Shown here: positions 8,555 to 46,458 of the stretch, piece after piece
Position numbering within the stretch: the stretch's first letter is position 1
Layout: each line of letters begins with the position of its first letter
DNA from: Synechococcaceae cyanobacterium
GTDB taxonomy: Bacteria > Cyanobacteriota > Cyanobacteriia > PCC-6307 > Cyanobiaceae
Assembly (NCBI GenBank): GCA_947378425.1
Contig: CANCJV010000018.1
Coordinates: 1-64,000 of the forward strand
Length of the DNA stretch: 64,000 nucleotides
Reading direction: 5' to 3'
Made by a program: the position numbers and the translations under genes
Notes under the pieces: model-generated
What the model was told of the DNA's origin: nothing
The model's input: only the letters and a program-made list of their open reading frames with translations
Databases searched by the model: none

Positions 8555-8944
8555 TCAGGCGAATCCCCTCAGTGCAGCGTCGGCGCGCAGCAGCTGCTGG
8601 TCGGCCGTGTCGTCCGCCAGGCATTCGGCCAGCCCATGGCCCACCGACAGGCCCGCCGCCCGCAACGGCTCACTGCTGTCCAGCCGACCCTGAAGAGCCG
8701 CCAGCCACAGCCGGGCACCGGCCGGGTCCAGCTCGGGCAACAGCACGGCAACATCCACCCCTGCCAGGCGACCCGCCATCTGCTCCTGACCCAGACTGGC
8801 GAGCACCAGGGGGGCGCTGGCCGCAGCGACAGCCAGTCCCAGACTCAGGAACAGCTCGATGGCGCGGTGGGCTTGGCGCACGGCAGTGGAAATGCAGGGC
8901 CCATTGTCACGATGCCGCCCCGCATGCAGGCGGAGCGAGGGCAC
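8555..8944 (-). pseudogene. Degenerate GGDEF-like domain fragment
   Basis: A 129-residue leftward frame whose second half resembles the C-terminal part of a diguanylate cyclase domain: AGRLAGVDVAVLLPELDPAG where RxGGDEFxxLLP is expected, followed by AGLSVGHGLAE and QQLLRADAALRGFA. The catalytic GGDEF signature is replaced by AGVDV, so it cannot make c-di-GMP. The N-terminal half of the domain is not recognisable. I interpret it as a decayed fragment; a small stand-alone non-catalytic protein is possible but less likely in this decayed neighbourhood. Confidence 0.5.
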
Positions 8945-8984
8945 CGATGAGGGTGAGCAATGGCAAAGGCCCGTGAAACCGATA

Positions 8985-9975
8985 TCAGGCAGGCACCACC
9001 TCGAACAGGCCCATGCAGCCCCGCTCGACGATCAGATCCTGGTGGGGGTGCAGCATGTAGCGCCCCGGAAAGGGGTAGCGGACTCCAGGATGCGCCGCTC
9101 CGCCATCCCCAGGGTCACCACATCAGTGATCGTGCCGCCACCGGGTTCGCTGCCGGTGTCGACAACCTGGAACTCGTTGGCGTGCACGTGGTAGGTGAGC
9201 AGCGCCTCCAGTTCGGTCATGTTCAACAGATACAGCCGCACCAGGGCGTTCTGGCGAATGCGGATCGGCCGGTTCATATAGGCGTCTGGGATGCCATTGA
9301 AGGCGTAAAGCTCGTTGCGGCCGTCGTTATTGAGGTCGTAGCCGCCCATCACCAGCACCAGTTCATCGGCGGGAGGGCGCGGCGTTGGGGGATCGACCAC
9401 CATTAGGCCGTAGAGCCCCTTGCGCACGTGGCGGCTGACCTGCGCCACGTGGCAGTGATCGGGGTACAGGCCGGCGCGGGGCAGATCGAACTCGTAGATC
9501 GCGGTGCGGCCCCGCAACACAGGCTCGATGCCATCCATGGCGGCGGGATGGACATCGTGGACATGGAGGCTGTGGGAGGTGCTGTCGCCGTTATGGAACA
9601 CCAACCCGCAGCCGCTCGCCCTGGCGGGCCCGCAGAGTTGGACCCGGCACGCGGCCATCAAAGCTCCAGGCCTTGAAGCGCACCTCCTCGGCCAGCTGCA
9701 GGGTGATGCTGCGGGGCCTCTACCTCGATCAGTCGGCCATGTTCAAAGGAGCGCAGCGTCTCCTGGGGATCAACAGGCACATCGCCTCTGGGGTTGCTGA
9801 CGCTGTGGAGGCCGGGCTCCATCGCTATCGCCCCATCGCGGCCCAGCCAGCCCAGGGCCACACCTCCCCCTGCCAGCAGGGCACCGGCACCGGCCTACAG
9901 CAACCGGCGGCGACCGAAGAGCGCAGGGTCTTCAGAGCGAAGAGGAGACAAGGGAGCGGATGGGGTGGGATGCAC
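8985..9975 (-). pseudogene. Multicopper oxidase pseudogene
   Basis: Joining three leftward frames reconstructs a multicopper oxidase (periplasmic metal or phenol oxidase family). It starts at a GTG at 9975 with a Tat-like GRRRLL, then EVRFKAWSFDGRVPGPTLRA, VFHNGDSTSHSLHVHDVHP, LYPDHCHVAQVSRHVRKGLY, TYHVHANEFQVVDTGSEPGG and, at the end, RYMLHPHQDLIVERGCMGLF. The copper-ligand motifs (HVH, HCH, HVH, HPH) are all present. Lesions: a TAG at 9895-9897 just after GRRRLL, and frameshifts near 9710, 9600 and 9075. Several independent lesions argue against sequencing error. It lies in a block rich in copper and iron genes. Confidence 0.85.
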
Positions 9976-10036
9976 AGGGAGTCAGCCCTCAATGTGGTCG
10001 AGCAGAATTCCGCGAGGCGATTCCAACCAGCCGCCC

Positions 10037-10306
10037 ACGCGCTTTCTGCTCATGCCGTTGCTGGCGGAGAAGAAGCTGCGGGACCTGGTCACCGCCCTGA
10101 ACGACCCACCGCCCCTGGAGCAATGGGGCCAGGACCGCCGGCTGGCACGCCCGCGGCCTCAAGCTGAGCGTCACGTCAATCAGCGCGAGCTGCTGTTTGA
10201 GCTCGACACCGCCCCCCTCGCCCTGTTCGAGCGGCACGGGAAGGACGAGATCTTCGATCTGATCAGCCGCAGCTCCAGCAACCTGTTGCGCCGCTGGGAC
10301 GGTTGA
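10037..10306 (+). pseudogene. PiuC-like Fe(II)/2-oxoglutarate hydroxylase, internally deleted
   Basis: This fragment is a decayed relative of the intact hydroxylase at 45793-46458. The N-terminal part reads RFLLMPLLAEKKLRDLVTAL, then in another frame ARTAGWHARGLK (intact copy: TTAGWHARAVK), and then jumps directly to the C-terminal end RELLFELDTAPLALFERHGK and DLISRSSSNLLRRW. The whole catalytic double-stranded beta-helix with its His-x-Asp...His iron ligands is missing. The expected start codon position reads ACG (10037-10039). It sits beside a decayed copy of the small Gly-Gly-Glu protein, as the intact gene sits beside an intact one. Confidence 0.8.
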
Positions 10307-10413
10307 GCTGCGGCGGCTGGGAGGGGACATCAGCGGGGCCGCTGAGCTCGATGGATGCTGACGCCATGCAAGAGCTCAGAAACCACCGCCCTTGAATCCG
10401 GTGTGAATCAATC

Positions 10414-10539
10414 TCAGCCGCCTTCCCCACCTTCGCCGCCTTCCCGGCTCGCAGGGCTGTGACGGCAGGCCACGGTGCCGCCAGCGAGGGCCAGGGTGAT
10501 GAGGAAGAGGGCAACCGTGCTGTTGCGGGGCCTATGGAT
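10414..10539 (-). pseudogene. Small Gly-Gly-Glu-tailed (lipo)protein, start codon lost
   Basis: Leftward frame encoding a hydrophobic segment VALFLITLALAGGTVAC with a lipobox-like Cys, then HSPASREGGEGGEGG and a TGA. It aligns with the intact lipoprotein at 45288-45506, which has the same order (Arg-Pro, hydrophobic helix, Cys, ending GGEGGEGGEG). At the position of the intact start Met there is ATC (10537-10539), and no ATG, GTG or TTG lies between it and the upstream stop. The acidic middle of the intact protein is also missing. Hence a pseudogene, paired with the PiuC-like pseudogene next to it. Confidence 0.6.
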
Positions 10540-10860: not shown

Positions 10861-11481
10861 TTGGAACTGGCCAGGCCGCTGCAGTTGGCACAGGGTGATG
10901 ATCTTCTGCTCAGCTGCACATTGGAAGCATCGACCTGGATGCGATTGGAGGTTGAGAGCGGGATCGGTCGGTTGTCGGCATCTTTCGGTGGTGCCTGGCC
11001 CGATGTCACCCTGGCTTTCTGTAGCGAAAGTGAACCGGAATGGTTGCGTGTTCCGCATGGATGCTTCTGCCAGCTCGAGGCCCTCACCACCATGCGGCTG
11101 CGCCTCCATCGCTTCCATCCAGACCAGCCTCAGGCTGCTGCCCTGCCATCCCCCCTGGAGCTGGGTGAGCACGAGCTGATCGCGGAGTGGCTGCTGGATC
11201 TGCATCTGGTGCGGCATCCGGTGGGTACAGACGCTCGACTGGCCAGCCTGCTGCGGATGCTGGTCGCTCACTTCGGAATCCGCACGGCGGATGGGTACCG
11301 ACTGCCCTTCACCCTTGGCCATGCGCGCCTTGCCGAGCTGATCTGCACCACCCGATCGACCGTGACGCGTCAGCTGGTGGTGCTGCGTCAGACGGGGCAG
11401 ATGCGACTGGGTGAGTCCCCTGGCAGCCTGCTGCTCGTGCCGTCTTTCGTGGAAGAGGGACCGGAACGACGGCCACGCTGA
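10861..11481 (+). CDS. Crp/Fnr-family transcriptional regulator
   Basis: A 206-residue regulator. The C-terminal winged helix-turn-helix is clear (RLASLLRMLVAHFG, then ARLAELICTTRSTVTRQLVV near residues 160-180). The N-terminal sensory domain is short and diverged, without the cyclic-nucleotide-binding cassette residues, so the effector cannot be predicted. The start is TTG at 10861; the in-frame ATG at 10834 is followed by a stop at 10855, and no clear Shine-Dalgarno is seen. The ferritin gene follows 85 bases downstream on the same strand, and CRP-type palindromes lie upstream (10604) and beyond the ferritin gene (12358), so it may control this iron-storage locus. Confidence 0.85.
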   Translation: MELARPLQLAQGDDLLLSCTLEASTWMRLEVESGIGRLSASFGGAWPDVTLAFCSESEPEWLRVPHGCFCQLEALTTMRLRLHRFHPDQPQAAALPSPLELGEHELIAEWLLDLHLVRHPVGTDARLASLLRMLVAHFGIRTADGYRLPFTLGHARLAELICTTRSTVTRQLVVLRQTGQMRLGESPGSLLLVPSFVEEGPERRPR

Positions 11482-11566: not shown

Positions 11567-12103
11567 ATGAAGGAACTCACCCGCGCCATCAATGACCATC
11601 TGGCGGCGGAGTTCCAAGCCAGCCACACCTACCTGGCGATGTCGATCTGGCTGCGGGAGAAGGATCTGGCCGGCTTCTCCACCTACATGCTCGAGAAGAG
11701 CAATGAGGAGCGCGTGCATGCGGCCCGGATGATTGCCTACCTGGTGGACAGCGACGAGCAGGTGGAGCTGCCGACCGTAGAAGCACCGGAGCGCCAGTGG
11801 CCTTCGGTGCAGCAGTTGGTCGATGGCGTGTACGAAATGGAGAAAGGCGTCACCGCCTCGATCAACCGCCTCTACGGCATCGCCGAACAGCAGGGGGAAC
11901 GCAGCGCCACAGCGATGCTCGACTGGTTCGTGGCCGAGCAGCTACAGGAGGAGGCCGAGGCCCGCTTCGTGTGCAAACGCCTGAGACTCGCCGGAGACAA
12001 CAGTGCAGCCCTGCTGCTGCTTGATCAGCAGTTTCTGGAGGGCACGGCGCTCAGCCACGTCAAGGGGGGCCTGGGCGGGAATGGTGGGACAAGCGAGGCC
12101 TGA
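11567..12103 (+). CDS. Ferritin (bacterial non-haem type)
   Basis: A 178-residue ferritin that oxidises and stores iron in a 24-subunit shell. The N-terminal helix contains the ferroxidase glutamate (AINDHLAAEFQASHTYLAMS), the second helix the bridging Glu and His (EKSNEERVHAARMIAYL), and the third and fourth helices ligands around EMEKGVTASINRLYGIAEQQ and FVAEQLQEEAEA. The length is normal. The frame is open upstream, but the ATG at 11567 begins the conserved helix (KELTRAINDHLAAEFQ). It follows the Crp-type regulator and is convergent with a small cysteine-rich ORF. Confidence 0.92.
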   Translation: MKELTRAINDHLAAEFQASHTYLAMSIWLREKDLAGFSTYMLEKSNEERVHAARMIAYLVDSDEQVELPTVEAPERQWPSVQQLVDGVYEMEKGVTASINRLYGIAEQQGERSATAMLDWFVAEQLQEEAEARFVCKRLRLAGDNSAALLLLDQQFLEGTALSHVKGGLGGNGGTSEA

Positions 12104-44023: not shown

Positions 44024-45328
44024 TCAGCGGACCTTCGCACGGACGGGTTCGGCGGCGACCCACTCCTGCATCAACCGCTGCGCCAGCCATTCGCCACTGC
44101 GCAGCGCCCCCTCGATGCGGGCAAAGCCAGGGCCGGCGATGGCATCGCCGCAGAGCGCCACCCGGCTGGCCGGGCAGACCATCGCCTCGGCCTCCAGACC
44201 CGGAGGACAGGGAAAGGCCGCCCCCCAGCGCATCAACTGGCGTTGCTCCAGCCCGGCCAGGGGACTGTCCTGGGGCAGCAGCCCGGCCAGGGCATCGATC
44301 AGCGCCTCGCTCAGGGCCTGGATCAGCCGGGTCTCAGCCTCCGGATCCGCCGGGGCGGCCAGGAGGCGGCCGGCCGAGGAGCGGCTGCCATGCACCCCCA
44401 GGTAGCGGGCCGCCAAGGCAGCACTGGAATGGGCGACCACGACGACGCGGCCATCCGCCAGCGGCTGGATCGAGAGGCGCTCCAGCCCCCAGCGCCGCTG
44501 GGCAGCGGCGGAAAAACTGAGATGACGAAAGGGCAGGGCCAGCCAGCTCTGGGCCGCTTCGGCTCCGATCACCAGCAGCAGGTTGCTGCGGGCTTCACTC
44601 TCGAGCGCGGCGATGGCCTGGAGCGCCGCCTCCAGCCGGGAATCGCCGAGCTGGCGGGCCGCCGCCGCCAGGGGCACCTCCGACCAGCCGAACACCCGCT
44701 GGCCGCGGGGATGGGCCAGCAGGGTGCCGGCCAGCACCAGCCAGTCCGCCTCGGCCAGCAGCTGCCCCTGGCCATCAAGCAGGCGCCAGGGGCCGCCGCG
44801 GGTGGCTGTCAGCTGCCGCACCATCACCCCATAGCGAACCTGGGGCGCCGACACCCCGGGGGGCGTCGCAGCCGCCAGGGCCAACAGCCCCTCCGAGAGG
44901 GCCTCCAGGCCCCGGTTGCCGCGATAGAGCGCACCCTCCAGCCGGGGATCTCCCTGGCTGGCTGGGGTCTGAGCCTTGGCCCGGATCTGACCGTCAGCCT
45001 GAAGCTCGGCCAGGCCCGCCGGCCCAGGCGGCCAGGGTTCGATCCAGCCGCCCTGGAGCAGGGGCGCCAGCAAGGCCGGCGTCGGCTCGGCGCTGATGTT
45101 GAACATGGGGGCGCCATGGTCGATGGCCAGGCCCCCATCGCGGCGGGAGCGGCGGGTGGAAGCCCGACCACCGGGACCGCGGCCGGTTTCCAGCAGGGTG
45201 ATCGGCGCGCGGCAACCCAGCCGGCGCAACTGGGCCGCCAGGGCACAGCCGGCGACGCCGGCCCCGACCACGGCGATCGATCGCGGCTCAGCCCTCGCCA
45301 CCCTCTCCACCTTCACCGCCCTTTTCAC
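44024..45328 (-). CDS. Renalase-like FAD/NAD(P)-dependent oxidoreductase
   Basis: A flavoprotein of up to 434 residues. The Rossmann motif SIAVVGAGVAGCALAAQLRR is near the N-terminus, followed by LLETGRGPGGRASTRRSRRD, and near the C-terminus RVALCGDAIAGPGFARIEGA contacts FAD. This pattern matches the renalase/NAD(P)-binding family of cyanobacteria; substrate unknown. Only GTG starts are available (45328, 45310, 45301); the last would give a more typical N-terminus. The widest frame overlaps the lipoprotein gene by 41 bases. Confidence 0.85.
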   Translation of the reverse strand: MKRAVKVERVARAEPRSIAVVGAGVAGCALAAQLRRLGCRAPITLLETGRGPGGRASTRRSRRDGGLAIDHGAPMFNISAEPTPALLAPLLQGGWIEPWPPGPAGLAELQADGQIRAKAQTPASQGDPRLEGALYRGNRGLEALSEGLLALAAATPPGVSAPQVRYGVMVRQLTATRGGPWRLLDGQGQLLAEADWLVLAGTLLAHPRGQRVFGWSEVPLAAAARQLGDSRLEAALQAIAALESEARSNLLLVIGAEAAQSWLALPFRHLSFSAAAQRRWGLERLSIQPLADGRVVVVAHSSAALAARYLGVHGSRSSAGRLLAAPADPEAETRLIQALSEALIDALAGLLPQDSPLAGLEQRQLMRWGAAFPCPPGLEAEAMVCPASRVALCGDAIAGPGFARIEGALRSGEWLAQRLMQEWVAAEPVRAKVR

Positions 45329-45506
45329 CCATTTCAGGCTTTTCGCCCTTTTCAGCCTTGGGTTTGGCCGGCGCCGGGGCGGAGCTGCTGGGAGCCACCG
45401 TCTCGCCGGCCTTGGGCGCCGGGGAATGGGAGCTCTGTCCGCAGCCGCTGACGCCGGCGATCAGGCCGGCGGTGGCCAGGAACAGGGCAATGGACGGTCG
45501 AGCCAT
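45288..45506 (-). CDS. Small lipoprotein with a Gly-Gly-Glu repeat tail
   Basis: A 72-residue protein: Arg-Pro start, hydrophobic helix IALFLATAGLIAGVSGC with a lipobox (VSGC), an Ala/Pro/Lys/Glu-rich middle and the tail KGGEGGEGGEG. Lipid attachment at Cys would leave about 50 residues in the periplasm. A decayed copy at 10414-10539 keeps the hydrophobic helix, Cys and tail, and in both places a PiuC-like oxygenase gene is the divergent or adjacent neighbour. No family is recognised; the acidic tail might bind metal or be modified. ATG at 45506. Confidence 0.75.
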   Translation of the reverse strand: MARPSIALFLATAGLIAGVSGCGQSSHSPAPKAGETVAPSSSAPAPAKPKAEKGEKPEMGEKGGEGGEGGEG

Positions 45507-45792
45507 GACGACAGGGATGGGCAACAGGGCCATTGTTGGTGACGGTGCTGCGCAAGGGCGGCCCATGGGCGACAGAAACCTGTGCGATTTGGCACCACGG
45601 CAGCCAGCCTGGTGCCTGCCGGCGCGGGCCTGGCCATCGCGATCGCGGGGGCCGAGGCGCTGCGGGCGGGCACCATGGAGCGCAGCGCTGATCCCGGGCG
45701 ATTCAGGTCGTGCGGTGGACGTCACTTTCTGAGGCGCTCCATCCCCGCCTGACGATCGCCTGCTGTTTCCCTCTGGTTCCCTCCCTGCGACC

Positions 45793-46458
45793 ATGCGCTT
45801 TCAACTGGAGCAGCTGCTCAGCCCGGACCAGGTGGAGGCACTGCGATCGGCGCTGCTGGCCCCGGCCAGCCCCTGGCAGGCCGGGGCCACAACGGCGGGC
45901 TGGCATGCCCGCGCCGTCAAACACAACCGCCAGCTCAGCCGCGCCAGCGATCTTCATGGCCAGCTGGCGGCGGGGGTGCTGCAGGCACTGGAGGCTTCTG
46001 CGCTGCTGCAGGCGGCAGCCCTGCCCCTGAAGATTCACAGCCTGCGCTTCAGCCGCAGCGGCCCGGGCGAGGGCTATGGCCGCCATCTCGATGATGCCTA
46101 CATGGCCGAGGGGCGCTCCGATCTCTCCTTCACCCTGTTTCTGAGCGAGCCGGCGCAGTACGACGGCGGTGAGCTGGTGCTCGAGTTCCCCGGCGGGGAC
46201 GAGCCACACAAGCTGGCGGCGGGCGATGTGCTGGTGTATCCCAGCACCCTCCTGCATCGGGTTGAACCCGTGGAGCAGGGGGAACGGCTGGTGGCGGTGG
46301 GCTGGATCGAAAGCCGCATTCGCGGCGCCGAACAACGGGAACTGCTGTTTGAACTCGACACCGCCCGGCGCTCCCTGTTTGCCCGGGAAGGCAAGAGCGA
46401 GGAGTTCGACCTGATCAGCCGCAGCTACAGCAATCTGCTGCGCCTCTGGGGCCCCTGA
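45793..46458 (+). CDS. PiuC/YbiX-type Fe(II)/2-oxoglutarate-dependent hydroxylase
   Basis: A 221-residue PKHD-type dioxygenase. Iron ligands are His98 and Asp100 in GYGRHLDDAYM and His155 in STLLHRVEPV, with the oxoglutarate arginine near residue 166 (GERLVAVGW). Conserved ends: TTAGWHARAVKHNRQLS and the C-terminal RELLFELDTARRSLF and DLISRSYSNLLRLWGP. In Pseudomonas piuC is iron-regulated beside a siderophore receptor, but its substrate is unknown. ATG 45793. It is divergent from the small lipoprotein, 286 bases away; that gap holds no other gene. Confidence 0.93.
   Translation: MRFQLEQLLSPDQVEALRSALLAPASPWQAGATTAGWHARAVKHNRQLSRASDLHGQLAAGVLQALEASALLQAAALPLKIHSLRFSRSGPGEGYGRHLDDAYMAEGRSDLSFTLFLSEPAQYDGGELVLEFPGGDEPHKLAAGDVLVYPSTLLHRVEPVEQGERLVAVGWIESRIRGAEQRELLFELDTARRSLFAREGKSEEFDLISRSYSNLLRLWGP

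Follow-up and report, generated by a model that had tools for sequence, protein, structure and literature searches.

Does a PiuC-type oxygenase act on the small Gly-Gly-Glu-tailed protein that is encoded next to it? Enzymes of the PiuC/YbiX/CciO type are widespread and tied to the uptake of iron, and they are found mutated in Pseudomonas resistant to cefiderocol. In recent papers on Caulobacter, the PiuC/CciO substrate is treated as unknown (PMC12004947, PMC12004943). In the 64,000-nt stretch of Synechococcaceae cyanobacterium DNA analyzed here (the window), a piuC-type gene and a gene for such a small protein lie side by side at two places, and a preliminary description had proposed the small protein as a candidate partner of the oxygenase or even its substrate, whose acidic tail might be hydroxylated into a metal ligand. 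Our comparisons of genes and protein sequences show that Gly-Glu repeats are a portable tag on predicted exported proteins, genetically coupled to PiuC in cyanobacteria and in at least two proteobacteria.

An intact piuC gene is divergent to a gene for a tagged lipoprotein

The intact pair comprises the following features:

45288-45506, minus strand: small lipoprotein of 72 aa, with the leader MARPSIALFLATAGLIAGVSGC, a linker and a C-terminal GGEGGEGGEG tag
45507-45792, no strand: 286-bp intergenic region common to the divergent lipoprotein and piuC genes
45793-46458, plus strand: intact PiuC-type Fe(II)/2OG oxygenase of 221 aa, with H98, D100, H155 and R165 present

ORF analysis and profile searches bore out the description of an intact GGE lipoprotein gene lying divergently beside an intact piuC. 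The oxygenase matched NF003974 over its full length (E 8e-84; 280.5 bits, cut-off 143), and also 2OG-FeII_Oxy_3 (E 1e-13) and PKHD_C (E 8e-7). It is a predicted Fe(II)/2OG oxygenase of the PiuC family (NF003974/PRK05467, PKHD_C), which has the solved relatives 3DKQ, 9GHL and 9QN0-4. The HxD...H iron triad and the 2OG-binding Arg (H98, D100, H155, R165) were invariant across 62 aligned PiuC sequences. The lipoprotein, read from 45506 to 45288 on the minus strand, is MARPSIALFLATAGLIAGVSGCG...KGGEGGEGGEG, and its homologues were found as a family beside PiuC elsewhere. Leaders and lipobox were judged from the sequence by reading.

Apart from the lipoprotein, the products encoded around the intact piuC in the window are an FAD oxidoreductase, small proteins that gave no match, and an LmeA-like protein; a TonB receptor gene does not adjoin piuC. 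The three-GGE DNA pattern was found at only two places in the 3.63-Mb genome, the intact and the decayed locus. A reversed control pattern gave no match in this genome, and none were expected in shuffled windows. The pair at 45288-46458 is thus an instance of the arrangement described below, a putative exported tagged protein encoded near PiuC.

PiuC-like 2OG oxygenases were also seen in 101 phage records, nearly all of cyanophages (H43-H60, e.g., Synechococcus phage S-PM2). One paper mentions piuC, solely as responsive to warming (PMC12274634).

The pair at 10 kb is read as a relic of a larger cassette

The second locus contains four remnants:

8804-8986, minus strand: leader remnant of a helical GGE protein of about 270 aa (RAIELFLSLGLAVAAASAPLVLAS), 48% identical over 61 aa to L074
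8985-9900, minus strand: multicopper oxidase remnant, broken over several reading frames, with 85% aa identity to G081 across 181 aa
10037-10306, plus strand: PiuC remnant with no ATG, a frameshift and a deleted core, retaining the C-terminal PKHD_C part (10169-10306)
10415-10539, minus strand: remnant of a GGE-tailed small lipoprotein, with ATC replacing ATG and the tail EGGEGGEGG

The decay that had been described at 10037-10539, an oxygenase without ATG and catalytic core beside a small protein with ATC for ATG, was confirmed. At the start codon position, the PiuC remnant has ACG. Its residues ~4-25 and 27-43 are in different frames, with the frameshift between ~10099 and 10113, and residues ~44-176 are gone. 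These comprise the Fe/2OG core with the iron and 2OG ligands, so that both the HxD...H triad and the 2OG Arg are absent. Over the C-terminal 44 residues, identity to the intact window copy is 70%; the PiuC fragment is closest to L011 (86%). The small-protein remnant, read from 10539 to 10415 on the minus strand, is IHRPRNSTVALFLITLALAGGTVACRHSPASREGGEGGEGG*, with no in-frame ATG, GTG or TTG start.

From these similarities, the region 8804-10539 is interpreted as the relic of a larger cassette encoding a helical GGE protein, a multicopper oxidase, a GGE lipoprotein and PiuC. Intact cassettes with these genes are present in G124, G081 and G117. Recent duplication of the pair at 45-46 kb was rejected as the source, because the fragments resemble the cassettes of these other genera and L011 more closely than they do the resident pair. 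The gene order of the decayed cassette differs from that in G124 and G081, so that a rearrangement or a different source is needed. The tblastx comparison of the relic returned many chance matches, and its results were retained only when searches at the protein level agreed. In G032, G144 and G054, too, a second or sole copy of PiuC next to GGE genes is broken; gain and decay of extra pairs therefore recurs. Thus, both pairs in the window are real, as had been stated, but their repetition says little by itself, the second being the relic of a different cassette.

Beyond the decayed cassette come a reading frame for a Crp-type regulator (10861-11481) and an intact ferritin gene (11567-12103), which suggests an iron-related island. 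On the other side, at 8555-8944, the leader remnant of the GGE protein continues into an unrelated frame without a Pfam match, apparently a decay junction.

Tags accompany PiuC in the family of the window

We scanned one set of 201 genomes from the window's family for both PiuC and the tag patterns and compared the positions of the matches. PiuC was present in 123 genomes. A marine-type GEGENCW tail occurred once per genome in 82 genomes, in every case on the strand of PiuC and 271-418 bp downstream of it. Once overlapping matches were merged, 52 sites in 35 genomes fitted the GGE pattern. Thirty-seven of the sites were within 3 kb of PiuC, and 36 of these were upstream and divergent, the remaining one being the decayed window locus. 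The distance of GGE tails to the divergent PiuC was mostly about 280 bp. Sites beyond 3 kb mostly belonged to a second class of GGE proteins, again in PiuC genomes (G034 and G061 are PiuC genomes with the GGE protein more than 3 kb away).

Strict tag patterns were found in 116/123 genomes with PiuC vs 1/78 without it (p 5e-46, Fisher test ignoring kinship). Around the GGE DNA site of the sole PiuC-less genome, G057, no tagged ORF was found. Six of the seven PiuC genomes lacking a strict pattern have a slightly relaxed GGE tail beside PiuC, which leaves G178. With relaxed tails included, 122 of the 123 PiuC genomes have a tag, 120 of them within 3 kb of PiuC.

Small proteins of the marine and freshwater types have in common the N-terminus M-x-R/K-S-S-I-A-L-F-L-A-A/T and their place beside PiuC, and they look related from their sequences. 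A bridging protein (L101 8607-8987, in G037) contains many GEG/GGE repeats followed by CIPIGEGENCW, linking the two forms. In marine PiuC neighborhoods, a FutA-like binding protein cluster was identified in 13 and an SLH/OprB porin cluster in 21 compared loci (Pfam). We also noted a contig titled as a Bifidobacterium breve MAG (L007) with a PiuC 80% identical to that of the window and a GGE lipoprotein of cyanobacterial type. This contig is probably mislabelled or mis-binned.

The association extends to other cyanobacterial families

We mapped PiuC throughout the phylum and inspected its neighborhoods, with hand-tallied counts for the 32 PiuC genomes that belong to the same class but to other families. 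A Gly-Glu-repeat exported protein is encoded within about 450 bp of PiuC in 28 of these genomes and within 2 kb in three more (G227, G266 and G363), giving 31/32. In the last genome, G310, Gly-Glu-tagged genes are on other contigs. At the class level, an exported GGE-tagged protein was found in 21/32 genomes with PiuC vs 0/71 without (p 3e-14, Fisher). Since the tests take related genomes as independent, the p-values come out too low; we still give the pattern much weight, because it is seen across many families. Thus, the neighborhood search that had been suggested showed GGE-tailed ORFs to be enriched beside PiuC homologues (122/123 genomes in the family, 31/32 in the others), and the small protein is strongly supported as a candidate partner of PiuC.

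Five apparent exceptions (G285, G365, G449, the second PiuC of G211, and G239) have neighbors with GER, GES, GEK or GEY repeats. A "GGE only" definition, which also misses the marine GEGENCW, was rejected as too narrow, and the tag is best written (Gly-Glu-x)n. For the PiuC-type genes of G238 and G178, no tag was found nearby, and some tags are unlinked to PiuC. GGE DNA matches in PiuC-less genomes were considered as counter-examples and rejected: those inspected were simple AG-rich repeats or non-exported frames. Exported Gly-Glu-tagged proteins were not found in PiuC-less genomes in the family and class-level scans.

Several other genes recur beside PiuC. A PepSY-TM-like gene was seen at L156 7991-8560, L198 8308-8898, L199 6790-7338 and L201 7035-7577, the assignment being Pfam-tested for L156 only; in Methylobacterium (L224) a PepSY gene comes after PiuC. 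At three freshwater loci (L087 7789-8238, L088 9494-11002, L014 5688-6128), PiuC adjoins a Fur-family regulator and seemingly ZnuA/ZnuB-like transport genes. A metal other than iron may therefore apply.

The tag is carried by non-homologous, predicted exported proteins

Tagged scaffolds include small lipoproteins, imelysins (PF09375), a His_Phos_1-like protein, an RTX-repeat protein and the helical family of about 270 aa. By sequence comparison, these predicted carriers are non-homologous; what they have in common is the tag, a leader of the export type and the presence of PiuC in the genome. The tag is short, often three or four triplets, and is placed at the C-terminus in small lipoproteins and after the leader in imelysins. 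Small tagged proteins had no Pfam or NCBIfam match, that of the window giving one meaningless weak match.

The helical family has no significant Pfam or NCBIfam match either. Its reading as a divergent imelysin was rejected, since the profile comparison was negative and the fold match weak (E 0.05, TM 0.33). Many genomes without PiuC, most of them from a single family of cyanobacteria with large genomes, also encode members of this protein family; in these the alignment begins only at model position about 71, with leader and tag missing. Among the sequences read, the scaffold is tagged in 8/10 from PiuC genomes and in 0/20 from PiuC-less genomes. The species of the two untagged copies from PiuC genomes carry the tag on another protein beside PiuC.

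A leader profile was built from the small lipoprotein N-termini of the window's family. It gave higher scores to the leaders of tagged proteins in other families than to control signal peptides taken at the same loci (AUC 0.83, p 3e-7). Because starts were chosen automatically and some of the leaders are homologous, we treat this only as supporting evidence. Another leader type, KLWxGxGAYL, is found repeatedly, on imelysins as well as on small tagged proteins.

Within triplet repeat runs we counted 329 Glu vs 6 Asp, a bias that in part reflects selection by the search, because the strict tag patterns specify Glu codons. This near-exclusive use suggests that Glu is the target or is required for recognition. 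The marine tail CIPIGEGENCW differs from the GGE/GEx tags in its invariant Cys and Trp, and a conserved Cys is found only there; another residue may therefore be the target in marine strains.

Further repeat-bearing proteins were observed. Proteins with GES/GEY/GEL repeats are encoded beside PiuC at L132 421-1287, L156 5956-6684 and L198 6097-6798, and the first of these has RTX calcium-binding repeats. An SLH/OprB porin (L213 6434-8506) contains GGEGGEGGEGGE; its gene is far from piuC, in a PiuC genome.

Proteobacterial PiuC genes mostly adjoin a TonB receptor

Proteobacterial PiuC loci were sampled from plasmid records, giving a small sample. Most of the PiuC genes examined adjoin a TonB receptor, and no Gly-Glu tag was found at those loci. 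Thus, the tag cannot be the universal substrate of the PiuC family. Two PiuC genes without a TonB receptor nearby do have tagged neighbors. In Pantoea agglomerans, a small protein encoded divergently has a KLWIGVG leader and eleven GEHEG/GEYEG repeats, with a period of five, not three. In Roseovarius indicus, a gene 4 bp upstream of PiuC encodes GEG repeats at both ends of its product. By eye, this protein looks like a member of the family of about 270 residues, with which it has the motifs GH...HVGHPxEExY and EYQDSxGF in common. In this small sample, tag and TonB receptor may be alternative PiuC partners.

An alpha-hydroxy-acid oxidase gene was observed beside or near PiuC in several alphaproteobacteria (L223 6767-7885, L225 5358-6440, L233 4688-5779, L235 5383-6465), a possible hint at the chemistry of the PiuC product.

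PiuC probably acts on the tag

We are almost certain that PiuC and the tag are functionally linked in some way. The tag moves among unrelated exported proteins, only in PiuC genomes, and the simplest account is that PiuC acts on it. The tag is favored as the substrate because it is the only feature common to otherwise unrelated neighbors, and on balance we think that it is probably the direct substrate of PiuC. In the proposed mechanism, cytosolic PiuC would recognize the precursor, perhaps through the conserved leader as well as the tag, and would hydroxylate the repeated Glu (Gly is less likely) prior to export. Hydroxylation next to a carboxylate yields a hydroxy-carboxylate, a type of group found in iron chelators. 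The modified carboxylates would bind Fe(III), either within the periplasm or on the cell surface, and the tagged carriers would hold iron or pass it on for uptake. This last role is proposed because the tags are on lipoproteins, on imelysins and on a marine peptide encoded beside FutA-like and porin genes; the iron links of imelysins and of the FutA-like and porin neighbors fit iron handling outside the cytoplasm. That a hydroxylated Glu of the tag serves as an iron ligand is a possibility we advance only tentatively. In the window, the role would be performed by the pair at 45288-46458, and 8804-10539 would be a dead relative of the same system.

It is unlikely, in our estimate, that the target of PiuC is instead a small molecule (for example, a siderophore or an iron chelate), while the tags bind metal unmodified or are flexible acidic linkers and the genes are neighbors through the response to iron limitation. 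In proteobacteria, PiuC/CciO has been proposed to process the substrates of the TonB receptors encoded next to it (PMC12004947, PMC12004943), the tags are acidic and could chelate without modification, and a FutA-like binding protein and an SLH/OprB porin are among the marine PiuC neighbors. However, co-regulation leaves unexplained why the tag is the one feature common to unrelated neighbors, why unlinked tags are found in PiuC genomes only, why the helical scaffold has no tag where PiuC is absent, and why Glu is used nearly to the exclusion of Asp.

Still less probable is a docking or allosteric function, in which the tag would bind PiuC or another cytosolic partner and control, for example, export or metallation of the carrier. 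The same co-occurrence data fit this explanation, and conserved leaders suggest recognition before export, but the PiuC active site, unneeded for pure docking, is complete and invariant, and every PiuC copy observed without it is decayed. A last alternative is that GGE repeats would be common in any GC-rich genome and lie near piuC by accident. In its favor, some PiuC-less genomes contain the DNA pattern in simple AG-rich repeats. It is refuted by the genome-wide scans with a reversed-pattern control and by the fixed distance and orientation, and the inspected matches in PiuC-less genomes lie outside exported ORFs.

Returning to hydroxylation of the tag by PiuC, its co-occurrence with PiuC across the phylum makes the tag a concrete, testable substrate candidate. 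Possibly, PiuC of cyanobacteria and some proteobacteria hydroxylates Glu in a portable tag that is a ribosomally encoded iron ligand, a protein-borne siderophore-like module. Its carriers would be small lipoproteins, imelysins, phosphatase-like and RTX proteins, and possibly a porin. If so, picocyanobacteria and many other cyanobacteria would have such a module, and abundant phototrophs would use a new route for handling scarce iron and a new protein modification.

Comparison with known systems

No paper on GGEGGE in cyanobacteria was found. Among papers accessible without subscription, we found none linking PiuC to Gly-Glu-tagged proteins; the P. aeruginosa PiuC work (9GHL, 9QN0-4) may treat substrates.

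The closest known pairs are those of PiuC/YbiX/CciO and a TonB-dependent receptor in Pseudomonas, E. coli and Caulobacter, with the same oxygenase family and a link to iron. Here, in contrast, the partner is a Gly-Glu-tagged exported protein, and no TonB receptor gene stands beside the window piuC. Several tagged proteins are true imelysins (PF09375), the family of EfeO/EfeM, to which the tag is an addition, whereas the helical family of about 270 aa has only a weak fold resemblance to imelysins and no profile match. Prolyl and lysyl hydroxylases acting on collagen-like Gly-X-Y belong to the same 2OG oxygenase superfamily, and most tags likewise are Gly repeats with a period of three. However, the repeats are short, unlike the long Gly-X-Y stretches that can form a triple helix, and their constant residue is Glu instead of Pro or Lys.

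In bufferins and other MNIO-modified RiPPs, an iron-dependent oxygenase is encoded beside precursors with Sec signal peptides (PMC12452194); the tagged proteins likewise are encoded beside an iron-dependent oxygenase and have putative export leaders. Some MNIO RiPP precursors are lipoproteins and some are protein-sized, and bufferins are exported metal binders (PMC12452194). Cys motifs are the main targets of MNIO (DUF692) enzymes, which work together with partner proteins and in a copper context, whereas the enzyme described here is of the 2OG-FeII_Oxy_3/PKHD_C type, the Gly-Glu repeats are mostly without Cys, and the context is iron. Bufferins set a precedent: there, an iron oxygenase modifies metal-binding peptides that are exported through Sec (PMC12452194).
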